Source of the DNA: Gammaproteobacteria bacterium
GTDB taxonomy: Bacteria; Pseudomonadota; Gammaproteobacteria; Ga0077536
Assembly (NCBI GenBank): GCA_016191285.1
Contig: JACPPA010000019.1
Span: 124,001 to 188,000 of the forward strand
Direction of reading: 5' to 3'
Length of the DNA: 64,000 bases
Shown here: piece after piece, positions 15,439-60,502 of the stretch
How the letters are laid out: every line of letters begins with the position of its first letter
Numbering within the stretch: the stretch's first letter is position 1
Made by a program: the position numbers and the translations under genes
The notes under the pieces: model-generated
The model's database searches: none
What the model was told of the DNA's origin: nothing
The model's input: the letters and a program-made list of their open reading frames with translations, nothing else

Positions 15439-17859
15439 TTAAGCCGCGACCGCCTGCTCCGTAAACAATTTGAGATCGACGCCCTCGCCGACCAGCAGAT
15501 CCCGCCGTGCGACAAACTTCGGCTTTACCAACCACACGATAAGCGGCAGAACCACCAGCGCGAGAACCATATTAATGGCCATGATCACCAATAATAAAAG
15601 GCCCATATCGGCGACAAACTTGAGGCCCGACAAGAAGTACCAAGGCGCGATGCCGAGCGCCATGATCGTCGCGGTGAACATAATGGCTTTACCGGTCGTG
15701 CGCAAAGCGGCCGTGATCGCCAGGCCCCAGTCGTTGTTATGAGCATGGAACTCTTCGCAAATTCGCGACAACAAGTAAATGCCGTAATCGATGCCAACGC
15801 CAACGCCAATGGCCGCGACGATAAGCGAGTTAGTATCCAACCCCACACCGAGTAAATGCATCGCGGCATACAGCACTTGATTGGCGAGGTTGACCGGAAT
15901 TAACAACAACAAGCCGGCGACTAGCGAACGATAGGCGATGCTACACGATATCAAGATCAATAAATTCAAGGTACCGATACACACCCAGTGGTAGCGTTCG
16001 ATCACATGATTAACTGCCTGCTGCAGCGCTATCGTGCCGGTGCCTAGCCGCACGCGATAGGTCGGATGATCTTCGCCGACGGTCGCCACCGCCGCGCGCG
16101 CCGCGGCCAGCGCGTGATCCACGGTTTCTTGTTTGTTGTCTTTGTACCAGAGCGACACGGTCGCGTTGTGCCATTTGTAATCGACCAGGTTGTTGAAGTT
16201 CTTGGCACTGGTGCCCATGGTCACGGCGAAGGCGGCGGCGCTCAGCGCCGGCTGATCGGGATCGAGCGAAATCCACTTTGGATTGCCACCGTTAAAGAGG
16301 CGATTACCCTCACCCATGTAATCGGCGAATGACAGCGTCGCGCGCGGCGGCTCGGGTCCGCGCTCCATCAGCAATTGCAGATTTTGCATGGTCGCCACTC
16401 GCTCGAGTTTCTGTACTTCCATATCCGGGCTTTTTTTGTTCTTGGCCTCAAGCACGATTTCGAGCGTGTTAACGCCGGGAAAATGCGCGTTGATCTGGCG
16501 CACCGCGGTGTTGAACTCGGAGTCATGCCACAGCAAATTCGTCCCCTCGACGGGATTGCCGATCTTGATTTGCATGGCGGTATAGAGCGACAGCGCCGCG
16601 CCGATGGCGACCAGTACCGTCGTGGTGCGTGCGCGACGCCCGAAACTTAAACTCGCGATCCAACCCAGCATGCCTTGAAAGCGACGGTGTACACCCGAAA
16701 CCCTGCCATGTCCGATCAGCTGTTCCACATTTTTCGGTGGCGGCAGCGAAGCCAGCAAGAGCGAGATCATGACCACCCCCGTCGGGATCAACCACACCGC
16801 CCACATCCCACAAAAAATTGCATGACGGACCATGGCCGGAATCGGCGCGAAGCCAACAATGAAGATGCCTAGAATATCGGTGATGATGCCGAGCACGCTC
16901 GGCGCCATCATGACCCCCATCGTGATCTCGGCAGCCTTCACGCGATCTTTGATTTGCGCGTAAATTTCGTAGAACCGTTCGGTGAATTGCACGCAATGCG
17001 AAAACGAGCGCGCGGTCAACAACAGCGGCACCACCATCAACAACGGTTCAATCGAAATGTGGAGCCACCCGACCAGCCCAAACGCCCACACTGCCGCCGT
17101 CATGCTGGTGAGGATAGGCGTGATCACGCCAACCAGATTCCGCATGTAGAGGGCCAAGGCGAGAATCAAGGCGCCCAAGGTCACCGCGAAGATCCCGATC
17201 ATCTGCCGTTCGTATTGATACACCCAGCCGATCAATACGGGCTGGCCCGCGAGGTACACCTCGTGGTCGGCGTCGCGCGCGGCTTCGACCAGGTTTTGTA
17301 CGTATTTGAATGCGGTGCCGAAATCGATCTTCTTTTCGATGAAGGTCGCCGTGATCAACGTGGCCGTGTCATCCCGCGAAATGAGGAATACGCGTGAGTT
17401 CGGCGATTTATCGACGAGCCGACGGAAACGGGCCACCGCTGCGGGCGATGCTGGCGCCTTATCCTCCATCAACGGCCGCATGTCGATGCCTTCGGGGGTC
17501 GCTTCGCTGTAGCGCGCCTTGGTGCTCGCGATCGACAAAATGGTGTCGTGATCGACACCCGGTGCGAGATCGATATCGCGCGAGAATTTGTAGACCTTGG
17601 CGAGCGTCGCGGAATTGTAGATGTCGCCGCGCTTGCATTTGATCATCACCGCCACGGTGAGTGGGCTGCCGAAGTCCGGATGATCTTTATAGACCTGGAC
17701 GAACGGATCATCGGCGGGCAGCAAGTCAGAGAAGATGGTGCGGAGCTGAACGTTCGGCAGCCCGGCGGCGAAGAAGGCCGTAATCAGTACGAACACCGTC
17801 CACGACAACGCGCGATGCGAGAGCACCCAACGCGCGATGCGGTAACGCAACGAATACAT
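15439..17859 (-). CDS. MMPL/RND-superfamily permease
   Basis: It has 806 residues with twelve predicted membrane segments in two halves, each preceded by a large periplasmic loop. The second half contains GVGVGIDYGIYLLSRICEEF, a TM4-like segment with the conserved Asp of proton-driven RND transporters. The protein resembles MMPL-like permeases of soil proteobacteria often found among steroid or aromatic-ring degradation genes, where transport of hydrophobic molecules is suspected. A paralogue lies at 34282. No adaptor or outer-membrane partner is next to it. Confidence 0.85.
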   Translation of the reverse strand: MYSLRYRIARWVLSHRALSWTVFVLITAFFAAGLPNVQLRTIFSDLLPADDPFVQVYKDHPDFGSPLTVAVMIKCKRGDIYNSATLAKVYKFSRDIDLAPGVDHDTILSIASTKARYSEATPEGIDMRPLMEDKAPASPAAVARFRRLVDKSPNSRVFLISRDDTATLITATFIEKKIDFGTAFKYVQNLVEAARDADHEVYLAGQPVLIGWVYQYERQMIGIFAVTLGALILALALYMRNLVGVITPILTSMTAAVWAFGLVGWLHISIEPLLMVVPLLLTARSFSHCVQFTERFYEIYAQIKDRVKAAEITMGVMMAPSVLGIITDILGIFIVGFAPIPAMVRHAIFCGMWAVWLIPTGVVMISLLLASLPPPKNVEQLIGHGRVSGVHRRFQGMLGWIASLSFGRRARTTTVLVAIGAALSLYTAMQIKIGNPVEGTNLLWHDSEFNTAVRQINAHFPGVNTLEIVLEAKNKKSPDMEVQKLERVATMQNLQLLMERGPEPPRATLSFADYMGEGNRLFNGGNPKWISLDPDQPALSAAAFAVTMGTSAKNFNNLVDYKWHNATVSLWYKDNKQETVDHALAAARAAVATVGEDHPTYRVRLGTGTIALQQAVNHVIERYHWVCIGTLNLLILISCSIAYRSLVAGLLLLIPVNLANQVLYAAMHLLGVGLDTNSLIVAAIGVGVGIDYGIYLLSRICEEFHAHNNDWGLAITAALRTTGKAIMFTATIMALGIAPWYFLSGLKFVADMGLLLLVIMAINMVLALVVLPLIVWLVKPKFVARRDLLVGEGVDLKLFTEQAVAA

Positions 17860-34281: not shown

Positions 34282-36696
34282 ATGAGATTTCGGCTCGCAA
34301 AATGGATCATGGATCATCGAGGAGCAGTTGGGGTGGCGTTTATTCTCATCACCCTGGCCTTCATGGCCGGCATCCCTCACGTCCAGATCCGAACGATTTT
34401 CAAAGATCTGCTGCCGAAGAACGATCCCTTCGTGCAGGTGTATTACGACCATCCGAACTTCGGCAATCCGCTGCAGATCTCGATCATGGTCAAACGCAAG
34501 AAAGGTGACATCTACAACCCCGAGACCTTACAGAAGGTCTGGCAGATGACGCGTGACGTGGATTTGGCGCCGAAGATCAATCACGACACGATTATTTCGA
34601 TTTCAACCGAGAAACTGCGCTACGCCGAAGCAACCCCGGATGGCGTGGACTTACATGCGTTGATGGACAACAACGCACCAAAGACCGCCGCGGAAGTGGC
34701 CGAATTCCGGAGCCGCGTCGCGCGCTCGCCAAACGCGCGGACGTTTTATATTTCGCCGGATGAATCCGCTACTTTGATCAACGCGGCGTTTCTCGACTCC
34801 GTGGATTACGGCGAAGCGTTTAAGTACATCCAGGGTTTCGTCGAGAAAGCGCGTGATGCCGACCACGACGTTTATGTCGCCGGGCAACCCACGCTGACCG
34901 GTTGGGTTTATAAGCTGCAGAAACAGACCTACAGCATTTTCGGTGTAACGGTCGGCGCCTTGATGATCGCGCTCGTGTTCTACATGCGTAATATCGCCGG
35001 CGTCACCACGCCTATCGTTTGCGCACTGGTGGCGGCGCTGTGGGGTTTTGGTTTCATTGGCTGGCTCGGACGGCCGATCGAACCGTTGCTGATGATCGTC
35101 CCGTTGTTACTCGTAGCGCGCTCGTTCTCCCACTGCGTGCAATACACCGAACGCTACTACGAAATTCTGCTGCAATTGAAGGACCGGCGGAAGGCCGCCG
35201 AAGTCACCATGGCCATCATGATGGCGCCGTCCATCCTCGGCATCATGACCGACGTTTTCGGCATCATCTTCATCGCCGTGGCGCCGATCAAAACCATGGT
35301 CAATCACGCGATCTTCTGTGGTTTCTGGGCGTTGTGGATTATCCCGACCGGCGTGTTTCTGATTTCGATTCTGTTGTCGTACTTACCGGTACCGAAAAAT
35401 ATCGAGGAGATCGTCGGCGGCGAAGGCAAGGAATCCGGGATTCACTTGCTCCAGGACAAGCTCCTGCACGGTATTTCGCGGATTACCTTCGGCAAGGCCG
35501 CCAACGTCACCGCGCTGGTGACCATTCTGCTCGGCATCGGCGCCGTGTATGTGAATTCGCTGATCAAAATCGGCAATCCGGTCGAGGGCAGCAATCTGCT
35601 GTGGTACAACTCCGAGTTCAATACCGCGGTGCGCGCCATCAATGCGCACTTTCCGGGCATGAACACCTTGGAAATCATTCTCGAAGCCAAGCAGCGCAGT
35701 TCCGAGCGCCGCGTCGCACGCACGCCGGAAGTGGTGGCGGTAGCGACCAAAATCCAACGCATGATGGAAGCCGATCCGGTGATGCCACCACGCGCGACGT
35801 TGTCCTTCACCGATTACATGGGCGAAGTGTTTCGACTATTCTCGGGCGGTAATCCGAAATGGATGATTCTTGATCCCACCGATCAAGCGATTAATACCGC
35901 CGGGTTCGCCGCTACCCTCGGTACGAGCCCGCTCAATTTCGCGACGATTTCCGACTTTGAATTTCAAAACTCGACAGTGTCGGTATGGTTCCGCGATAAC
36001 AAACAGGAAACCGTCGACGGCGCGTTGGCGAGCGCGCGCAAAGCAGTCGATGCGGTCGGCGTCGACCATCCGGAATTCCGTGTGCGCCTGGGGTCAGGGG
36101 TAATCGCGTTACAACAGGCGATGAACAACGTAGTGCATCATTATCACTACTTGATCCTGGGCCTGGTTAACATCGCGGTGCTGGTGATTTCGGCCTACGC
36201 CTATCGCTCGCTAGTCGCCGCGCTGCTGTTGCTGGTACCGGTGAACCTTTCCAATTTCATGCTCGGCGCGTCGATGCATATTCTTGGCATTGGGCTCGAT
36301 ATCAACGCCACCATCGTCTCGGTCATGGGCGTGGGTGTGGGTATCGACTACGGGATTTATCTCTTGAGTCGAATTTGCGAGGAATATACCGCGCAAAATC
36401 ACGACCTCAAGAAAGCGATAACCGCGTCGCTCACGACCACCGGCAAGGCCATCATGTTTACGGCCACCATCATGTTGATGGGGATCCTGCCGTGGTATTT
36501 CCTGTCCGACCTGAAATTCATGGCGGACATGGGCATGTTGCTGGTCGCGATCATGTTGATCAACATGATCCTGTCCCTGGTGGTGCTGCCGCTTCTGGTG
36601 TGGTTCGTGAAGCCTAAGTTCCTCGCGCGTGAAGATTTGATGGTCGGCGAAAACGTCGACATCTCGCAGTTCATGACCAAGGAGGTCACGGGTTAG
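34282..36696 (+). CDS. MMPL/RND-superfamily permease, paralogue of the one at 15439
   Basis: It has 804 residues, colinear with the 15439-17859 product throughout and very similar at key regions (IRTIFKDLLPKNDPFVQVY, GVGVGIDYGIYLLSRICEEY, TTGKAIMFTATIM). It has twelve membrane segments in two halves, large periplasmic loops after the first helix of each half, and the conserved Asp in the second-half TM4. The start is well placed behind AGAGGA. Substrate unknown; hydrophobic or acyl compounds are suspected by analogy. Confidence 0.87.
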   Translation: MRFRLAKWIMDHRGAVGVAFILITLAFMAGIPHVQIRTIFKDLLPKNDPFVQVYYDHPNFGNPLQISIMVKRKKGDIYNPETLQKVWQMTRDVDLAPKINHDTIISISTEKLRYAEATPDGVDLHALMDNNAPKTAAEVAEFRSRVARSPNARTFYISPDESATLINAAFLDSVDYGEAFKYIQGFVEKARDADHDVYVAGQPTLTGWVYKLQKQTYSIFGVTVGALMIALVFYMRNIAGVTTPIVCALVAALWGFGFIGWLGRPIEPLLMIVPLLLVARSFSHCVQYTERYYEILLQLKDRRKAAEVTMAIMMAPSILGIMTDVFGIIFIAVAPIKTMVNHAIFCGFWALWIIPTGVFLISILLSYLPVPKNIEEIVGGEGKESGIHLLQDKLLHGISRITFGKAANVTALVTILLGIGAVYVNSLIKIGNPVEGSNLLWYNSEFNTAVRAINAHFPGMNTLEIILEAKQRSSERRVARTPEVVAVATKIQRMMEADPVMPPRATLSFTDYMGEVFRLFSGGNPKWMILDPTDQAINTAGFAATLGTSPLNFATISDFEFQNSTVSVWFRDNKQETVDGALASARKAVDAVGVDHPEFRVRLGSGVIALQQAMNNVVHHYHYLILGLVNIAVLVISAYAYRSLVAALLLLVPVNLSNFMLGASMHILGIGLDINATIVSVMGVGVGIDYGIYLLSRICEEYTAQNHDLKKAITASLTTTGKAIMFTATIMLMGILPWYFLSDLKFMADMGMLLVAIMLINMILSLVVLPLLVWFVKPKFLAREDLMVGENVDISQFMTKEVTG

Positions 36697-49779: not shown

Positions 49780-50715
49780 CTACCAATAAAAGAACACGGA
49801 AAAAATGTGCGCGAATAAAGCCGCCAACAACCCAACCGATAGCGGCACATGCAAATACAGCCAAAACGCCAGCCGCGACTGATATTGAATGTCGCGTTGA
49901 ATTCGCTCGACCAGCGCGCGCTTACGCGAGATCAGATCGAACAAGCGACGGATCTTCTCTAAACGTTCGGGGCCAGCGCCTTCCACCAGCATATGGCCGG
50001 CAAGAAAGCTAATTGCCGTGGCGTCTTGCTCGGCGACTTGCCGAACTTCCGGCGCGCCCCGCGCGATGCGGGCTTCGATGCGTTGTTTAACGACATCCAA
50101 TCCTTCGCTCACGCTGGCGGCCGCCGCGCGCCGCGCCGGATCGCCAAACAGCTGATCCCACACCGACCCGCCGAGGACGGTTTCCTCGATCGAATGGAGC
50201 ACTACCTGATGCGCGTCTTTCCCCACTTGGTCCGACAGCATTAGACACTCGCGATCAAGTTCGGCGACTTCGGCGATTAGCGCATCGCGCGTGACACCGC
50301 CGCGATTCGCCGTGAGCAACCGCGGATAAGTCACATAGGCGTAAAGTCCGTAGAAACCGCTTGCGACCACCAGCAAGGTCAACACATAGGCGATCGAATG
50401 CACATTCCAGCCGAGTTGAAAGCCACTGTGCAGGGTGGTGATGATGACCAGCGTGGTCCCCAGATACACATGCGCGGAAAGCCACGCGGCAAGGCGATTT
50501 TGGGTGTCGTGATAGCGTCGCTTGCGCACGCCAAACCACGCGAGCCAGCCAATCAGCGCCGCACCCACCGTGCCGAGTGTATAGCCGAGCCACGTGCCGC
50601 CATTCGGCGGCTCGGTGGGGTTGTGCAGAGCGTAGGCAAGCACTGCCACGCCGGTCAACCCCAGTGCGATCTTCAGGTAGAAAAAATTACGATAGCTTAG
50701 AAACGAAGCGTGCAT
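49780..50715 (-). CDS. Diheme cytochrome b-like membrane protein
   Basis: It has 311 residues with about five membrane helices: four in residues 12-130 and one at 283-309. H82 and H96 are in one helix (AHVYLGTTLVIITTLHSGF), and H289 and H303 in the last (LHVPLSVGLLAALFAH). Both pairs are H-X13-H, the spacing used to hold two haems across a membrane helix bundle. A 150-residue helical insert (131-280) lies between. I know no named family for this arrangement. It probably links quinone or the Fe-S module to the periplasmic cytochromes. Confidence 0.75.
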   Translation of the reverse strand: MHASFLSYRNFFYLKIALGLTGVAVLAYALHNPTEPPNGGTWLGYTLGTVGAALIGWLAWFGVRKRRYHDTQNRLAAWLSAHVYLGTTLVIITTLHSGFQLGWNVHSIAYVLTLLVVASGFYGLYAYVTYPRLLTANRGGVTRDALIAEVAELDRECLMLSDQVGKDAHQVVLHSIEETVLGGSVWDQLFGDPARRAAAASVSEGLDVVKQRIEARIARGAPEVRQVAEQDATAISFLAGHMLVEGAGPERLEKIRRLFDLISRKRALVERIQRDIQYQSRLAFWLYLHVPLSVGLLAALFAHIFSVFFYW

Positions 50716-50753: not shown

Positions 50754-53162
50754 TCACCGCGAGATCGCCATGAATTCCTGCGGGCTGACGCGAATGGCGG
50801 CGCCCGTCGGGCAGGCGCGCACGCAGGCCGGACCACCGGCTTGGTCTTTGCACATGTCGCATTTCACGGCTTTCTTCGGCGCGTGTTTATCGGTGCTGTG
50901 GAATTCGTCGCCCGGCGCCGGCCCCTTGCCCAGCAGCAACCATTGCCACAGGCTCGGTTTCTTGGGCTCGCCTTTAACCGCCATTTGAATGACCCCGTAC
51001 GGGCAATTCTGCTGGCAGTTGCCGCAGCCGATACAGTTATCAGCGATATACACTTCGCCTTCGGGTGTCCGGTGAATCGCGTCCGGCGGACAATCCTTCA
51101 TGCAATGCGGATGTTCGCAGTGCCGGCATGACGTCGGCACATGCAGCGTCGCGAAACTGGGGCCCGCCTCGCGATCGAGCAGGGACGTGCCCTTGTGCGT
51201 ATCCGCGCACGCCTTCTCACAATTGTCGCAGCCAATACACAAGGTCTCATCGATCAGTAGCACATCGGTCGCCTCGCCGATCCCCTGTTGCACCAGAAAC
51301 TCAATCATGTTGCCGGCGGCGCCCTGGCTCGCGCGCAAACGCGCGGTTTCGCGTAAACGGCCTTGCGCCTTTAATTTCAGTTCTGCATCGAGATCCGGGA
51401 AGCAGGCGAGCAGTTCGCGGAACACGACGCCTGGCAGTTGGATCGTTTCGGTAGCGACGGCGGCTCGTACAGTCGCCGTGCGCGGCGAATCGGTCAACAA
51501 AGCCAGTTCGCCGACATAGTTCCCGGAGGGCAAATAAGCGATAACGACATCGCGACCACCGATCTCGTGCGACACCGTCACCGAGCCGGTGCGGATCAAG
51601 TGCAGCGAGTCGGCCACATCGCCAGCCTTGAAGATGACCTCACCGGGATTGAACTGCCGGATGCGCGCAGTGTGCACGACTTCGATCAAATCATCTTCGG
51701 AAACCTCGGGCGCGATGTGCATGCGTATGGCACGTAACAAAAAGGTCTCGTCGATCTCACGGCGCACGGATTCCACGGATTGAATGAGCTTATTCATCGA
51801 TCGCCGTGGCGTTTCGATCAATACGCAGTCCTCGCCCGCGATCACCGTCGCGGCGCGGCGCCGGCCAGAGATCAACGACATCTCGCCGAAGAATTTGCCC
51901 TGGCCCAGGGGCAAGGTGCGAGTAGGATCGCTGGGATCGAGCCGAATGTGCGCGGATCCGCGCAGGATCGAAAAGAACGTGTTGGTGTAATCATTGAACT
52001 GCACGACCACTTCGCCCGGGGCTGGTGTGCGAATATCAGAGTCGAGCAAAAATTCGCGTAATTGCAGCGGGGTCAGGCCGGCGAACAGCGGGACATCGCG
52101 CTTGATGGTCGCTATGGCTTTATTGACCTTGGTCAATCCCGGGACATGCGCGAACTTCGCGCGCAACAAGCCTTCGTCCGCTGGCTCTACCTCACGACCG
52201 CAAATGAACTCAACGACCTCGTAGCCCTGATTGATGCATTGTTTGATCAGCGGATAGCCCGCAAGCGCGCCGATGATATAGAGCCCCGGCACATTCGATT
52301 CGTAGCGCGGGGATACCGCCGGCACCGCCGCCGGATCATCGTTCGGAAACTCAATGCCACAGGCTTCGACAAATTTGCGCGGCGGCAACGCGCCCAGGCG
52401 CGCGACGATGCGATCGCAGAGAACTTCGGTTTCGCCCTCCTTGGTCTTCACCATGAACCGCAGACGACGCCCGCTGGGATCCTGATTAAGCGCATCCACC
52501 CGCTTGGGGCTCGCGTTGTAGATGCATTCCAGCTGCCCCGACTCGATGCCGCGCATAATCCCCTTTAGATTGCCGTCCTTGGCGCGTGAAAACTCATCGC
52601 GCCGATTTAGAATGATGACGGTGTTATTCGCCGCCAGCGCAAGCGCATTCTCGATCGCCGCATCGCCGGCGCCGACGATCACGATAGTCTCGTCGTGATA
52701 TTCGTCCGGATCGTCCAGTTGATACTGCACGCAGGGCAGATCGTCGCCCGGCACTTCAAGCTTGCGCAGATTGCCCTGCAATCCGATACCGAGCACGACA
52801 TGTTCGGCGCGTACTTCGTCGCCGCCGGCAAGCGCTAAGATAAATTTACCTTTGCTGCCCTTGATGGCGCTCACTTCAGACTTGAAGCGCACCTGAGCGC
52901 CGGACTTGTGCACGCCGGCGCTCCAGGTCTTCAGGATTTTTTCACGCGTACCGGCTTCGAATCCAACTTCGGCGCGCAGGGGCAACACGCCGGGTTCGGC
53001 CATCACGTGCTTGCCTTTTTGATAACGAAAGATCGTGTTCGCTAGCTGGGGCGCGGCTTCGAGTAACACATGCGAGGTGTTGGTCGCGGCGGCGCGGGCG
53101 GCGGCGCTTAAGCCTCCAGGGCCGGCGCCGACGATCGCGATCTTGACCGAAGCGCTCGCCAT
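50754..53162 (-). CDS. FAD/NAD(P) oxidoreductase fused to two cNMP-binding domains and a four-cluster ferredoxin
   Basis: It has 802 residues. Residues 1-330 are a two-Rossmann flavoprotein (VGAGPGGLSAA near 11, VGAGDAAIENA near 163) of the thioredoxin-reductase/YpdA type, without a CXXC redox pair. Two Crp-like domains follow at about 365-480 and 490-610 (GKFFGEMSLISGRRRAAT; GNYVGELALLTDSPRTAT). The C-terminal 170 residues carry four [4Fe-4S] motifs of DmsB/NrfC type: CIGCDNCEKAC, CRHCEHPHCMKDC, CIGCGNCQQNC and CDMCKDQAGGPACVRAC. It is probably cytoplasmic, passing electrons between NAD(P)H and the membrane protein under cyclic-nucleotide control. Confidence 0.88.
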   Translation of the reverse strand: MASASVKIAIVGAGPGGLSAAARAAATNTSHVLLEAAPQLANTIFRYQKGKHVMAEPGVLPLRAEVGFEAGTREKILKTWSAGVHKSGAQVRFKSEVSAIKGSKGKFILALAGGDEVRAEHVVLGIGLQGNLRKLEVPGDDLPCVQYQLDDPDEYHDETIVIVGAGDAAIENALALAANNTVIILNRRDEFSRAKDGNLKGIMRGIESGQLECIYNASPKRVDALNQDPSGRRLRFMVKTKEGETEVLCDRIVARLGALPPRKFVEACGIEFPNDDPAAVPAVSPRYESNVPGLYIIGALAGYPLIKQCINQGYEVVEFICGREVEPADEGLLRAKFAHVPGLTKVNKAIATIKRDVPLFAGLTPLQLREFLLDSDIRTPAPGEVVVQFNDYTNTFFSILRGSAHIRLDPSDPTRTLPLGQGKFFGEMSLISGRRRAATVIAGEDCVLIETPRRSMNKLIQSVESVRREIDETFLLRAIRMHIAPEVSEDDLIEVVHTARIRQFNPGEVIFKAGDVADSLHLIRTGSVTVSHEIGGRDVVIAYLPSGNYVGELALLTDSPRTATVRAAVATETIQLPGVVFRELLACFPDLDAELKLKAQGRLRETARLRASQGAAGNMIEFLVQQGIGEATDVLLIDETLCIGCDNCEKACADTHKGTSLLDREAGPSFATLHVPTSCRHCEHPHCMKDCPPDAIHRTPEGEVYIADNCIGCGNCQQNCPYGVIQMAVKGEPKKPSLWQWLLLGKGPAPGDEFHSTDKHAPKKAVKCDMCKDQAGGPACVRACPTGAAIRVSPQEFMAISR

Positions 53163-53167
53163 GGCCG

Positions 53168-54520
53168 CTACTGCAACGCTGCTTCGAAAGTCTTCATCTC
53201 GGCGCTAAAGCGCGCCGGTTGATATGCGTTTTCGTCTTTCAGCACGGCGTAGAGGGTTTTGATTTGCGCATTCAATTGAGCGGTTTTTGCGGCGTCTCCA
53301 CCGCTTGCGGGCAACGAATCGACTAAGGCGTGCGCGCCCATTACCGCCTGCTCAGCCGCCGCATAGTCGCGATACTCGCCGTCGCGACCGCCGCGGACGA
53401 TGCTAGTCAAGATGCCGCGCGTCTCGTCTGCAGTAAAAGCGTGACCACGAATCTTGCTATCGATTTTGCCGAGGGTGGCCTGCACGCTCCGCGCTGCCGT
53501 GCGCGCCGCGTCGGCGGATTCGAGGCTGGCCTTATGCAGCGCCAGTAAACCGGCGTGGAGTTCGTCGGCCAGCTGCGCATCGGTCGCACGCATTAAATAG
53601 ATCAACATCAGCAAATTGGCGTCGTTGAAATGCGGCACACCGGGCGGTAAGCCGGCGCTCGCCCGCGGCGCCCAACGCAGTTCGGTTAACGGATGATGAC
53701 AGGCGTGGCAATCGAAGAACGCAAATTCGGGTAATCCCCCCGCGCCTTGGCCCTTCTGACTAATGAATAGCTCAAGCGTGCGCGCCGCGGCCGCGCTTTG
53801 ACCCACCGCCCAGGTTTCGACATGCGAGGCAACGCGCTTGCGGCTGCGATAATCGGCATCGGTGCGAAAATGCGCGGGCTGCAAGACGGTGAACGTATCG
53901 AGTTCGAACGACAGCCGCGGGTGGCCGGCGCCCATGATGCGATGGGTGGCGAATTTATTCTCGGCACCTAGGTGGCACGCCAGACATAGCTTCGCACGCG
54001 CGGCCGGTTCCTCGGTCGGATACATGCCGACTTTTAAATTATCCGCCCGACTCGCTTCACCCGTAACATGAGTACCCAACCACTTCGACGCCGGACCATG
54101 ACAGGTTTCACAACTGACACCATCGGCAATTTGAAAGCGCTTGCCACGCTGCGCTTCGGGCGCGTTATTGGCATGGCAGTTGAGACATTCGGACGCGGTG
54201 GCCGCGTTATCGAGGCCCAGGTTGTGCGCGATGCGCTGGCCTTTTTCTTCGAGCAGCACGCGATACGCCTTGGCGTGTGCATCGTCGCGATGCCAGGTGA
54301 TGAATTCGTTTTGATTGACTTTGGAATCCACCAGCGGATGCGGCGCGCCATGGCACGTTGATCCGGAACAGGTAACAACCCCCAAATACTTTGCCGGTTC
54401 GCTAGCCGCGTCCTCACTAAGCGCGGCGCGTTGCATCAGACAACCGCCCACTGCGATCAATAGCATGACACTAAACCGATAAGCCGGCCGCGCTCGGGAG
54501 GAGAAAAAGTAACGAATCAT
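53168..54520 (-). CDS. Multihaem cytochrome c, c554-like (copy B)
   Basis: It has 450 residues with an N-terminal signal (FSVMLLIAVGGCLMQRAALS). Haem motifs: CSGSTCH, a CX4CH variant, near the N-terminus, then CLNCH, CETCH, CLACH and CHACH. A helical tail of about 170 residues without haem follows. HRIMGAGHPRLSFELDTF is shared word for word in structure with the next gene (HQLYGAGHPRLRFELDTY), so the two are tandem duplicates. Periplasmic electron carrier or reductase; the acceptor is unknown. Confidence 0.87.
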   Translation of the reverse strand: MIRYFFSSRARPAYRFSVMLLIAVGGCLMQRAALSEDAASEPAKYLGVVTCSGSTCHGAPHPLVDSKVNQNEFITWHRDDAHAKAYRVLLEEKGQRIAHNLGLDNAATASECLNCHANNAPEAQRGKRFQIADGVSCETCHGPASKWLGTHVTGEASRADNLKVGMYPTEEPAARAKLCLACHLGAENKFATHRIMGAGHPRLSFELDTFTVLQPAHFRTDADYRSRKRVASHVETWAVGQSAAAARTLELFISQKGQGAGGLPEFAFFDCHACHHPLTELRWAPRASAGLPPGVPHFNDANLLMLIYLMRATDAQLADELHAGLLALHKASLESADAARTAARSVQATLGKIDSKIRGHAFTADETRGILTSIVRGGRDGEYRDYAAAEQAVMGAHALVDSLPASGGDAAKTAQLNAQIKTLYAVLKDENAYQPARFSAEMKTFEAALQ

Positions 54521-54545: not shown

Positions 54546-55883
54546 TCAGTGTTGACCGAGACTCGCGCCTATTGAATTTAAGGCTTTCGCGAACGCGGTT
54601 GGGCGATAGGTTCGCTCATTACCGACCGCTAGATAGATTTCGTTTAGCGTCGCGTTCACGCGTTCAAAATCGGCGGGCGGCAGCCGTCCCTCATCAAACT
54701 CCGCGGCAATCAACGTGGCTAAGGACATGGCCACGCTCTCGGCCGCGGTGAATGCCAGTGGCGCCTCTGCTTTTGCTTCATCGACAAGCGCGCGCGCGAT
54801 CGCAAGTCCATCACTGGATTGTTCGTGATACGTATGGAGGGCGCTAGCGAGCATTTCGACCTCTTGTTTGAGGGCAGTCGCGCGACTCGCGCGCGAGCCC
54901 GGATCGTTGACACTGACCTGCAACGCGCGCGTGGCGCGACGCAGCGCATCGACCTGCGTAGGGTTAACGATTCTAGCCGCTCCGCGCAAGACGACAAACG
55001 CCGAGTCGTTAAAAGTCAGCGCACCGGATTTCACGCCCTGCCGCGGCCGATATTGCGGATCATCGTTGATTCCACGGTGGCATCCGTGACAATCGAACAA
55101 CGCAAGCTCTGGCCAGCGACCCGAGTTAGCGCCGGCCAGCGCCGCCGCCTGTTGTAAACCGGCGGCGATCTGCCCCGCCATCCATAGCTGGACATGACTG
55201 GCGAGCGGTTTGCGCCGGCGATAATCGGCGTCGAGATTGACATGCATGGGCTGCAACGCGGTGTAGGTATCGAGCTCGAAGCGCAACCGTGGATGTCCCG
55301 CACCATAGAGCTGATGGCTGGCTTTGCGAACGTTGTCCCCTTGATGACAGGACAAACAAAGGGCCGCGCGCGCAGCGGGTTCATTGGTGGGATAAAGCCC
55401 GGCCGCGACATTCGCGGCATGCGTGGCCGTCGGCTGCATATGGACAGCGAGAAAGCCACCGCCGGGACCATGACAGGACTCACAACCGACGCCGGCCTCG
55501 AGGCTAAATTTGGCGCCGCGCTGCGCCGCCGGGACGTAAGTGGTATGGCAGACCAAGCAGTCCGCTGCTTGGGCCGCATCGGCCAATCCCAGGTTGTGCG
55601 CAATCTGCTGGCCGGCCGTGCTGCTCAAACTGCTGAAGGCCTTGGCATGTCGATCATGCGCTTCCCAGATCGTGCGTTCTTTCATCGCCACGGTGGCATT
55701 GCGCCAGGGCTCGCGCGATCCATGGCATTCAGTCGAGCCGCAGGTGTCGACGCCGAGGAATCGCGCGGTTCGCTCATGCGGTAGCCCGACCGGTGTTGCC
55801 GGTTCTGCGGCGCTGGCCGCGACGTACCAGAGTCCGGTAAGGGATATCAACAACAGCGGCAGCATTGAACGCAGCGGATTCAA
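54546..55883 (-). CDS. Multihaem cytochrome c, c554-like (copy A)
   Basis: It has 445 residues. It starts at TTG 55883, overlapping the barrel stop as TTGA; an ATG at 55865 is the alternative. The signal peptide is LPLLLISLTGLWYVAASA. Haem motifs are CGSTECH (CX4CH), CLVCH, CESCH, CLSCH and CHGCH, in the same order and spacing as copy B. The CX4CH site needs a dedicated or tolerant haem lyase, so it may be a high-spin site or a non-haem relic. Confidence 0.87.
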   Translation of the reverse strand: MNPLRSMLPLLLISLTGLWYVAASAAEPATPVGLPHERTARFLGVDTCGSTECHGSREPWRNATVAMKERTIWEAHDRHAKAFSSLSSTAGQQIAHNLGLADAAQAADCLVCHTTYVPAAQRGAKFSLEAGVGCESCHGPGGGFLAVHMQPTATHAANVAAGLYPTNEPAARAALCLSCHQGDNVRKASHQLYGAGHPRLRFELDTYTALQPMHVNLDADYRRRKPLASHVQLWMAGQIAAGLQQAAALAGANSGRWPELALFDCHGCHRGINDDPQYRPRQGVKSGALTFNDSAFVVLRGAARIVNPTQVDALRRATRALQVSVNDPGSRASRATALKQEVEMLASALHTYHEQSSDGLAIARALVDEAKAEAPLAFTAAESVAMSLATLIAAEFDEGRLPPADFERVNATLNEIYLAVGNERTYRPTAFAKALNSIGASLGQH

Positions 55884-57490
55884 AACTTGAGCCGCAACTC
55901 GGCGCGTACGCCGGCCAAATTATCTTCGCCTTCGCGATAACCGTAGATCGCGTCAGTACGGAAAATCCACTGTTTGGACAACGGCCGCTGGTAGCGCGCA
56001 CCCAACGCGAATTGATCGCCTTTGGCGGCGCGGCCGGGTTCGTTATCACGCCCAAAGGGCTTTAACCCCGCCACCTCGAACACCAGTTGCTGATCGAGGT
56101 TAAATAAATATTCAATGCCGAGCGCACCACCGTAGGCATCGTTCGCGGTGTCGTCGAGTTTTGGAAATCCAGTCAGACCGTCGGTTTCGAAATTGATCCC
56201 GGTGTTCTTCAAAATCCCGCCCGCGCCAAAATCGCGGGCGAGCGATTGCGGCTTCCGCGAGCCGATAAAAAAGTTCGCATACGGCACCAAGGTGTACGGC
56301 TTGCTGGTGATGAGCGAGTTCTCGATCAGTAACAACCAACCGTCAGCGGTTTTGTTGAATCCCGCGCCTGGGTTCTGACCGAAGTTCCACACCACGCGGA
56401 CTGAGTTCGAGACTTTGCCGAACCAACGTTTCGTGACCGCGGCGGTGAGATTGTGATAGCTAAAATCGCCGAGCAGCGGCGAGCGATTGTCGTGGGTATA
56501 CCCGTAGCCCGCCTCGATGTACATTTCACGCGCTTCAATAAACACTGCCGAGCCATAAATATCGGCGCCGTGATCATCAAACCGCTTGTTCGGCTGCAGC
56601 TCGGCCTTGGTCGTCACCCGATCAAAACCGCCGAAGAACGTGATATCCATGTTCGAAATATCGAAGCGCGGGCTATTCAACGCCGGGATCGTGAAGGCGC
56701 CGCCCATGATCGCGTCTTCCATCCAAATTCCGTTCTGAAAGACGAGCGGCATCAATCCGAATGCGATCGGCAAATCATACAAGTTATAACGATCAGTCAA
56801 GCCGGCGGCGATTTGCCCCAGGTCGCCCTCAAAAAACAGCGCTTCCGGCTCGAGATCGAGCAGGACGCCGCCGTCACCCGTGCGATCGCGTTGATTGCCG
56901 CCGAATTCAAAACGCGTGACGCGCCCGGTCTCGACCCGATCAAGCGGGCGCAGAAAGACATGCACGCGCTCGGTGGCCGTCAGTCGCATGTCGATATTGA
57001 GATTCAACCGCGCCGCGACTTGGGCGGTATCGAGCGCGCCGTTGTCGTTATACGCCGTACCGAGACGCAGATCGCCGAAGACGAGTAGTTCCGGCCGCAC
57101 CGGATTTTTTGCACCGAGCAAGTTGATCCCGGGTCCAATCGAACCCGCTTGATACAGCGGATAACCCCATTCGACCGGCGGGCGCGGACCGTCGACCCGC
57201 CGTTTGCCGCCGTAGATCGCGAGTTGCGCGGCGACGTCATAGGGCTTGTCGACATAATTTGGATCGGGCCCGAACGCGCTCGGTTTAAATTCGGTGACCT
57301 TGGCTTCAGGCGCCATCTCGACCGGCGGCGACGGACGACCTGCATGAGAGTCGCGAGGAGCTTCCGCGGCAGGCTCCGGGATTACGGGTGCGCCTGTTGT
57401 TGGGCCGCGCCGCGGCACCTCCGCTTCGGCGCTCGAGATCCCGCCGCCAAGCGCCACAACGACCAGCGCAGCATTGAAAATACTTCGCAT
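55880..57490 (-). CDS. Outer-membrane beta-barrel protein
   Basis: It has 536 residues from ATG 57490, four bases after the upstream stop (a TTG at 57508 also fits). A signal peptide (SIFNAALVVVALGGGISSAEA) and a Pro-rich linker precede many amphipathic strands; the chain ends AGVRAELRLKF, with the C-terminal Phe of outer-membrane barrels. No cysteine-haem motif. I do not recognise a family. In this operon it could be a porin for cytochrome exposure (as MtrB does) or for a soluble electron acceptor; no sequence link to MtrB is visible. Confidence 0.75.
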   Translation of the reverse strand: MRSIFNAALVVVALGGGISSAEAEVPRRGPTTGAPVIPEPAAEAPRDSHAGRPSPPVEMAPEAKVTEFKPSAFGPDPNYVDKPYDVAAQLAIYGGKRRVDGPRPPVEWGYPLYQAGSIGPGINLLGAKNPVRPELLVFGDLRLGTAYNDNGALDTAQVAARLNLNIDMRLTATERVHVFLRPLDRVETGRVTRFEFGGNQRDRTGDGGVLLDLEPEALFFEGDLGQIAAGLTDRYNLYDLPIAFGLMPLVFQNGIWMEDAIMGGAFTIPALNSPRFDISNMDITFFGGFDRVTTKAELQPNKRFDDHGADIYGSAVFIEAREMYIEAGYGYTHDNRSPLLGDFSYHNLTAAVTKRWFGKVSNSVRVVWNFGQNPGAGFNKTADGWLLLIENSLITSKPYTLVPYANFFIGSRKPQSLARDFGAGGILKNTGINFETDGLTGFPKLDDTANDAYGGALGIEYLFNLDQQLVFEVAGLKPFGRDNEPGRAAKGDQFALGARYQRPLSKQWIFRTDAIYGYREGEDNLAGVRAELRLKF

Positions 57491-57494
57491 ACGC

Positions 57495-59252
57495 TTACTT
57501 AACCTCAAACTCGACGGCGCGCGGATGCAAATCGACCATCCACTCGTTGATCGATTGCTCCATGTCGATGGTCGAGCCGACGAATTTCATGAAGTAGATC
57601 GGCTCCGCGCGACTCCGCATCCGTGACTGCAGGACATATTTCCCCGGTTTGGTAAACGCCGACGCTGGGATCTTGTAACTAGCATCGCGGGCGCCAAGCG
57701 GCGGCAGGCTGCGACCTTCCATGCGGATGGTCGGCGGATGATTCAATACCGTGGTCGGCACGCCGGGCGGCCGAATATGCGGGAGTTGATCGCCGTCGAA
57801 GTTGATCGGCAGGTACATCTCGCGGTCGGTGCCCTTGATGTTGGTCGTCAGGAATTTGGTCTGCAGATTAAACAACTGCTTATCGAACGGCACTGCGCCG
57901 CTGGCGACTTCCAGCGAGTGAATGTCGGCCATATCGCCATTTTTGTCGACGTAACCGCTCTCCCACACCCGTTGCCCATCCGGATCGAGTAATACCACGT
58001 TGAACCACAACTCGGGTTGCGCACCGAGCGAACCCGACGGCAGGTTGTGTCCCTGATCAAGATTGGTAATGCGATAGTGCAACTTCAGAGGTTGTTGGAG
58101 TGTCAACGTCGAATCGAAAAACGGACCGTCGATTCGCATCGCATTTTCCATCACATCGACGCGCGATTTTTTCTTGTCATTCAGCAGCTTTTGATTGAGA
58201 GAAATCACATAGCGCGCTTCCTCGCGATCGGCGCGTGCGTTCCACTCGGGCGGAAATTCAGCCTTCACGGTGCCACGCGCGACTTGGTCTTCCCACTGCG
58301 GGTCACCCCAAGCCGCGCGGTAATCGAATTTCAGCCAATCGTTGATGGTCCAGCGCAGGGCGCGCGGGTTGAACGGGAAGATCCCGGGATGCGCGATCGG
58401 ATATCCCGGGCCAAAGAACATGTGATTTGAATGCTTTTGTTTGGGATCACCGACAGTCTGACCGTTGACGATCGCGATCGGCCAGGTCTCGAAACCGGCC
58501 GGCTCGCCGGGGACCTTGCCCATATGGCATTGCTGACAGGTAATGCCGGCCTTCGCCGCCGGCGCGCCGCGATACTGTTCCCAAACCACTTCGAGCTTGA
58601 TGCCCGGGTGCACCGCGACTTGGTGACAGGAGACGCAAAATTCGCTTTTTGAGATTTGTTCAAACTTAATCGGCGTCCCGTGAATCGGCGTCCCGGGAGC
58701 GCCGGGGGTAGCGGCCACGCCGTATTCGCTGGCTTTGGCTATAACCTCGCCGTACTTGCTCCCGCTGCCCGCCCCTGCCACGGGTTGCCCGAGATCGCCG
58801 GCGTCGACATGACGTTCACCATTGACCTTGCCGAATTGCGTCGACACTCGATGACAGGTGACGCAGGTTATGCCTTCGCGCGAAATTTCCGAGCGCTCCC
58901 ACAGCGGCTTTTCGCGCGGTTCCCCCATTTGCGTCGCGATTTGCTGATGGCAGCGGACGCAAAACGTGCCGATGGTGCCCGAGGCGAAATCGGTGATGGT
59001 CTGCTCGAACTTATGGAACATCGGCGAAATCGACGCGTAGGCGTGATTCGACACCGCCCATTCCCAGAATACTTTGGGATGACAGCCGGCGCATTGCTGG
59101 GCGCTCGGGAATTGCGACTCGGCAAAGACCGCGGTATGCGGATCGGCGCCGGCCAAGGCGACGGCGGACAGCATACCTAGCGCGAGACCGACCAGAACAC
59201 CGGCGGTTGGGGACCTATACACGCGTCGATGACGCGGTCTGTTCGATGCCAT
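57495..59252 (-). CDS. Pentahaem cytochrome c, first gene of the redox operon
   Basis: It has 585 residues from ATG 59252 (a GTG at 59276 is the alternative). The signal peptide (GVLVGLALGMLSAVALA) is followed by CAGCH, CVRCH, CVTCH, CVSCH and CQQCH in residues 60-270, the arrangement of c554-type cytochromes. The C-terminal ~280 residues are haem-free beta structure (LHYRITNLDQGHNLPSGS, ELWFNVVLLDPDGQRVW), which resembles a sugar- or protein-binding sandwich. It could be the terminal reductase or a donor to the outer membrane. The promoter is shared with hemB. Confidence 0.87.
   Translation of the reverse strand: MASNRPRHRRVYRSPTAGVLVGLALGMLSAVALAGADPHTAVFAESQFPSAQQCAGCHPKVFWEWAVSNHAYASISPMFHKFEQTITDFASGTIGTFCVRCHQQIATQMGEPREKPLWERSEISREGITCVTCHRVSTQFGKVNGERHVDAGDLGQPVAGAGSGSKYGEVIAKASEYGVAATPGAPGTPIHGTPIKFEQISKSEFCVSCHQVAVHPGIKLEVVWEQYRGAPAAKAGITCQQCHMGKVPGEPAGFETWPIAIVNGQTVGDPKQKHSNHMFFGPGYPIAHPGIFPFNPRALRWTINDWLKFDYRAAWGDPQWEDQVARGTVKAEFPPEWNARADREEARYVISLNQKLLNDKKKSRVDVMENAMRIDGPFFDSTLTLQQPLKLHYRITNLDQGHNLPSGSLGAQPELWFNVVLLDPDGQRVWESGYVDKNGDMADIHSLEVASGAVPFDKQLFNLQTKFLTTNIKGTDREMYLPINFDGDQLPHIRPPGVPTTVLNHPPTIRMEGRSLPPLGARDASYKIPASAFTKPGKYVLQSRMRSRAEPIYFMKFVGSTIDMEQSINEWMVDLHPRAVEFEVK

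Positions 59253-60502
<1,250 letters not shown>

Follow-up and report, generated by a model that had tools for sequence, protein, structure and literature searches.

Cyclic-nucleotide effectors known to us comprise kinases, channels, exchange factors, acetyltransferases and transcription factors. PCC4 is a putative porin–cytochrome electron conduit (He et al. 2017, PMC5566968). Its signature, as the main text of that paper gives it, consists of 4-, 5- and 10-heme cytochromes, IMP motifs and a pfam13247 gene upstream of the IMP gene, and the model presented there lets electrons flow from a donor to quinone (PMC5566968).

The conduit type, as putative PCC4, is already known, and so is each of the flavoprotein, cyclic-nucleotide-binding (cNMP) and polyferredoxin modules taken singly. 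Their combination in one enzyme in the order flavin–cNMP–cNMP–polyferredoxin, as seen in the protein OXR described here, was not found described in open-access full text, exclusive of supplements. The conservation of both sensors, the fusion of OXR with a membrane cytochrome and the cyclase linkage were likewise not found described in the open-access literature.

Gene cluster and distribution

The window, that is the whole stretch of 64,000 nucleotides analysed here (contig JACPPA010000019.1 of a Gammaproteobacteria bacterium), contains seven same-strand genes in the order C593–POR–C554B–C554A–OXR–CYB–FHAC, with gaps of -14 to +38 bases between them and OXR in fifth place (Table 1). The heme counts are five for C593, four each for C554A and C554B and ten for FHAC; POR has no Pfam match. 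In heme counts, IMP motifs and gene order the cluster matches PCC4 subgroup II by description. The earlier note on this DNA, whose domain anatomy for OXR stood, had missed this operon-like setting with a membrane b-type cytochrome partner. Elsewhere in the window, two similar RND/MMPL-like transporters of ~805 aa lie on opposite strands (15439-17859, -; 34282-36696, +).

A scan of genome contigs gave at least 587 stretches encoding OXR, of which 80 loci were kept, nearly all titled Proteobacteria or unplaced; OXR is a member of a large proteobacterial family. Full-length relatives with 56-84% identity occur in many genomes, and the existence of the architecture is far beyond chance. The four closest loci have the gene set of the window, complete or partial. 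The order OXR–CYB–FHAC is kept in most of the 80 loci, and at most other loci this core is followed by a different outer module, made up of an HbpS-like protein, a protein of ~600 aa and a multiheme/LVIVD protein of ~1150 aa. OXR was found in 15/398 genomes of a draw by phylum and in 16/369 of a draw by class; the draw also included three genomes from the genus and family of the window, and all three lack it, so it is an accessory system. The holders include Dokdonella, Lysobacter, Solimonas and Sphingobium; the plasmid copies in Sphingobium (46-47% identity) carry no annotation beyond 'cyclic nucleotide-binding domain-containing protein' or 'hypothetical protein'. OXR also occurs in MAG records that bear the name Klebsiella pneumoniae or Bordetella parapertussis (L001, L034, L049, L061, L074), labels that look wrong. 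One contig (L063) has two OXR copies in opposite orientation, with two facing ~827-aa neighbour copies between them.

In the FHA domain of FHAC, GR is present in 60/60 relatives, His in 55/60 and NG in about 50/60; the Ser and Arg positions are mostly Ala and Leu across the 60 relatives, with the domain itself retained. We take GR, the S/R of VSRxH and NG to be the residues of FHA phosphothreonine readers, among which Ser and Arg usually contact the phosphothreonine. FHA–kinase signalling via FHAC is a weak candidate, because the canonical Ser and Arg are lost.

Table 1. Features of OXR and of the surrounding gene cluster (positions in the window)
Feature	Position	Strand	Basis
OXR: 802-aa FAD/NAD(P)H–cNMP–cNMP–4x[4Fe-4S] oxidoreductase	50754..53162	-	whole ORF
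TrxR/YpdA/FNR-type flavoprotein domain, aa 1-325	52188..53162	-	FAD GxGxxG, NADPH-type GxGDAAIEN...NRxxEFxRxK, no CxxC
cNMP-binding domain 1, about aa 352-465	51768..52109	-	Pfam, PDB matches, model
Phosphate-binding cassette 1 FGEMSLISGRRRAATVIA, aa 425-442	51837..51890	-	G426, E427, R434, R436 invariant
cNMP-binding domain 2, about aa 476-592	51387..51737	-	Pfam, PDB matches, model
Phosphate-binding cassette 2 VGELALLTDSPRTATVRA, aa 550-567	51462..51515	-	G551, E552, R561 invariant
DmsB/HycB-type polyferredoxin with four 4-Cys sets, aa 633-796	50775..51266	-	Pfam, PDB matches, alignment
C593: pentaheme cytochrome, at the start of the cluster	57495..59276	-	heme motifs, Pfam
POR: 542-aa protein, presumed outer-membrane porin	55880..57508	-	position and conservation with the cluster
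C554B: cytochrome c554-type, 4 CxxCH (plus one CX4CH)	54546..55883	-	Pfam, heme motifs
C554A: cytochrome c554-type, 4 CxxCH (plus one CX4CH)	53168..54520	-	Pfam, heme motifs
CYB: 311-aa inner-membrane protein, next after OXR	49780..50715	-	WX3HX13H at 78, 285; SGXXG at 119
FHAC: periplasmic decaheme cytochrome (10 CxxCH) with an FHA domain at the N-terminus and a TM segment	48088..49773	-	Pfam, motifs

Domain architecture of OXR

OXR is one uninterrupted 802-codon ORF, from ATG to stop; a gene on the + strand of the same interval was ruled out by the many stops there. The earlier note had described a single chain of this length with a YpdA-like flavoprotein, two sensor domains, a ferredoxin with four [4Fe-4S] motifs and no DNA-binding domain. 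Pfam, phmmer searches of the PDB and the ORF check confirm this chain, and no DNA-binding family is among the 19 Pfam hits, as had been claimed; a cAMP-sensing transcription factor was ruled out on the latter ground. The AlphaFold2 model of OXR has a mean pLDDT of 82, with lower values of about 56-72 for most of the iron–sulphur part.

Pfam Pyr_redox_2/3 families match residues 7-313 (E = 1e-22 to 6e-26), and residues 6-302 match YpdA (7a7b) in the phmmer search of the PDB. The same YpdA is the best structural match of the modelled domain (Z 33.6); the Z score against B. cereus FNR1/FNR2 is about 27. The FAD GxGxxG and NADPH-type motifs are invariant in the 60-row alignment. The term 'YpdA-like' is correct for the fold but not for the identity of the protein: the NCBIfam YpdA model TIGR04018 scores 106 bits against a cut-off of 339.9, and residue 16, which we take to be the position of the conserved active Cys of YpdA, is Gly (G, A or S in 58/60 sequences). 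On these two counts YpdA was ruled out, and thioredoxin reductase was ruled out because the Cys in residues 1-350 form no redox-active CxxC. With a modelled TrxR-like fold and no CxxC, the N-terminal part falls among TrxR-type FNRs, and the corresponding activity is predicted.

The polyferredoxin part is covered by Pfam Fer4 dicluster families (residues 673-788), exceeds the cut-off of PF13247 (41 bits against 26.2) and matches the HycB-type subunits 7z0s and 7qv7 over residues 635-796 (phmmer to PDB). The four motifs correspond to four sets of four Cys (642/645/648/652, 679/682/687/691, 710/713/716/720 and 768/771/780/784), and all 16 are invariant in 60/60 aligned relatives; loaded, they would hold four [4Fe-4S] clusters.

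Cyclic-nucleotide-binding domains

PF00027 (cNMP_binding) matches OXR in two stretches with 123.6 bits against a cut-off of 27.5, and the best PDB sequence matches of residues 383-586 are the tandem regulatory domains of PKG and PKA (phmmer). Both domains contain, at 425 and 550, the cassette pattern [LIVMF]GE.[GAS][LIVM]...R[STAQ]A.[LIVMA].[STACV], which we take to be PS00889. Among the 60 aligned sequences it occurs in both domains in 45 and in at least one domain in 58. The Gly-Glu-(x8)-Arg core of both cassettes is invariant in 60/60 aligned relatives, these being the closest relatives, with FGEM in one of the six search patterns. In more distant members, drawn by profile, the GE...R core is kept in domain 1 of all inspected and mostly kept in domain 2, with few losses. 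The earlier note had suggested direct allosteric control of the enzyme by cAMP, cGMP or another anion, a reading that finds partial support here. It had made this reading depend on usable phosphate-binding cassettes, which are present in both domains; no long-known family with a defined other ligand was found. The Glu-to-Arg spacing of 9 is presumably that of PKA and PKG. Some relatives (L133 and L136) have a degenerate cassette 2, so domain 2 of OXR may be dispensable.

Linkage to class III cyclases

A class III cyclase is located within 25 kb of OXR in 15/29 OXR-holding genomes of both draws together. The phylum draw gave 8/15 genomes with 0.68 expected (P 3e-8, uniform placement), or 5/8 when counted by family (P 6e-5), and the second draw gave 7/14 with 1.27 expected (P 4e-5); these linkage P values are approximate, since a model of uniform placement takes no account of genomic islands or common ancestry. 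With hemB of the same genomes as a control, a cyclase was found within 25 kb in 1/28 (Fisher P against OXR 6e-5). The linkage was noticed post hoc in the first draw, then repeated in the second and then compared with hemB; ccmF was dropped as a second control because its copies sit in or near several OXR clusters. ccmF (cytochrome c maturation) lies near the OXR cluster in G630:C77, G722:C2, G301:C2, G259:C42 and G376:C7; two of these genomes, G301 and G259, carry another ccmF elsewhere. PF00211 is present in 15/15 and 13/14 OXR-holding genomes, against 261/398 of the phylum draw; presence per genome is confounded by lineage and was set aside as evidence, so linkage was used instead.

A cyclase also lies within the 10-kb flanks of 10/80 named loci, two of which are contigs included in the draw counts. 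Several linked cyclases are CHASE2-cyclases placed upstream of OXR in the same orientation, and several contain an IDKYMGD-type Lys, which we assume to be an adenylyl-type residue. The linkage, together with this Lys, points to cAMP as the ligand of OXR. In the window genome none of the 13 matches to class III cyclases lies near OXR, and 14/29 OXR-holding genomes lack the linkage; fragmented contigs explain some of these cases. Two of the clusters have other cNMP effectors as neighbours and are possible cAMP-response islands: in one, a Na/H exchanger with a C-terminal cNMP domain adjoins the multiheme gene (L118:13126-15759, -); in the other, a channel of the MscS type that contains a cNMP domain adjoins a CHASE2-cyclase (L120:2530-4068, -).

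Many Crp-fold domains bind no cyclic nucleotides, and the cNMP folds of OXR could bind another ligand or none, acting as a scaffold or as redox or metabolite sensors like Fnr or CooA; the loss of cassette 2 in some relatives fits such a role. We nevertheless regard it as unlikely, given the invariant Gly-Glu-Arg core in both domains, the PKA/PKG-like spacing assumed above and the cyclase linkage. Of the 29 OXR genomes, G591 (locus L136) alone lacks a PF00211 cyclase, and its cassette 2 is degenerate (n = 1), which also argues for cyclic-nucleotide binding. A different route would lead from the linked cyclases via Crp-like regulators to transcription of the cluster, with the cNMP domains of OXR mattering little for its activity. 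Control by cAMP–Crp is general in proteobacteria, and the window genome has further proteins with cNMP domains, some of them Crp-sized and with the same cassette pattern; this route is very unlikely in our view, as it leaves the invariance of both cassettes inside an enzyme unexplained.

Membrane partner and direction of electron flow

His residues 82, 96, 289 and 303 of CYB are invariant in 52/52 sequences, and the HX13H spacing is of the type found in ferric reductase/NOX, according to the PCC4 paper's main text (PMC5566968). Foldseek comparison of the CYB model with solved structures gave no significant match, so the prediction of a di-heme b protein rests on spacing and conservation. In two genomes (L096 and L097) OXR is fused to CYB in a single complete ORF of 1120-1125 aa, whose C-terminal ~320 aa match CYB with 32-34% identity and keep both WX3HX13H motifs. 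This fusion is strong evidence of joint action, and OXR and CYB probably form one enzyme.

On balance, we lean towards OXR being the cytoplasmic input module of a cAMP-gated trans-envelope conduit. The TrxR/FNR-fold domain would oxidise NAD(P)H, probably NADPH, with FAD; the electrons would pass along the four [4Fe-4S] clusters within OXR to the two b-hemes in CYB and across the inner membrane, then to the periplasmic decaheme FHAC and, via small multiheme cytochromes and the porin, to the outer membrane and a presumed final acceptor. The tandem cNMP domains, located between flavin and clusters, would bind cAMP from class III cyclases and gate flavin-to-cluster transfer through a putative allosteric effect of either sign. 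It is quite possible, and is proposed more tentatively, that in widespread electron exporters cAMP from linked CHASE2-type cyclases binds the NADPH-oxidising flavin/iron–sulphur enzyme directly and so sets transmembrane flow.

A possible quinone site on CYB counts against this reading. Its most serious rival has electrons flowing inward, to quinone: an extracellular donor such as Fe(II) or Mn(II) would reduce the outer cytochromes, CYB would deliver electrons to the quinone pool, and OXR would make NADPH uphill or only tune the process, whether gated by cNMP or not. In favour of this rival, the window cluster bears the signature of PCC4, which the main text of He et al. models as donor-to-quinone (PMC5566968). 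The fusion of an FNR-type flavoprotein and a polyferredoxin to a membrane protein, however, provides a direct NAD(P)H route without quinone. Moreover, we know of no iron oxidisers among Dokdonella, Lysobacter, Solimonas and Sphingobium, all of them holders of OXR. Inward flow is rather unlikely on this evidence, and outward flow from NADPH is preferred.

If outward, cAMP-gated flow is true, second-messenger signalling would be tied directly to electron export by a gated redox enzyme. PCC4-type conduits would gain a cytoplasmic electron source, and the control of extracellular electron transfer would become testable with one purified protein.

Comparison with known systems

PCC4 subgroup II, as presented in the main text of its description, and the window cluster both have 4-, 5- and 10-heme cytochromes, an IMP with two WX3HX13H motifs and SGXXG, and an Fe-S gene of pfam13247 immediately before the IMP gene, and POR is the presumed counterpart of the PCC4 porin (PMC5566968). 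The window differs in having a second 4-heme c554-type gene, and in its Fe-S gene a flavin part, two cNMP parts and a polyferredoxin part can be told apart; the main text of the PCC4 paper mentions neither cyclic-nucleotide nor FHA domains (PMC5566968). With MtrCAB/MtoAB the system shares the logic of an inner-membrane protein, periplasmic cytochromes and a porin; the nicotinamide input and cNMP gating proposed here set the window system apart.

NADPH oxidases and ferric reductases (NOX/FRE) work alike, in that an NAD(P)H–FAD domain supplies electrons to a membrane protein that has two HX13H pairs. OXR–CYB, in contrast, would have an Fe-S wire between flavin and hemes and has a different flavoprotein fold, and the likeness of CYB to NOX/FRE is that of His spacing. 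YpdA and TrxR-type ferredoxin–NADP reductases have the fold and the absence of CxxC in common with OXR, whereas OXR lacks the YpdA Cys, scores below the NCBIfam cut-off and has its own ferredoxin fused in. The regulatory parts of PKA and PKG share with OXR the tandem pair of cNMP domains, the cassette signature and the Glu-Arg spacing, but in OXR the pair is joined to an oxidoreductase, without a kinase. If the proposed gating is true, OXR would be a cyclic-nucleotide-gated redox enzyme, a parallel to cyclic-nucleotide-gated channels for ions.
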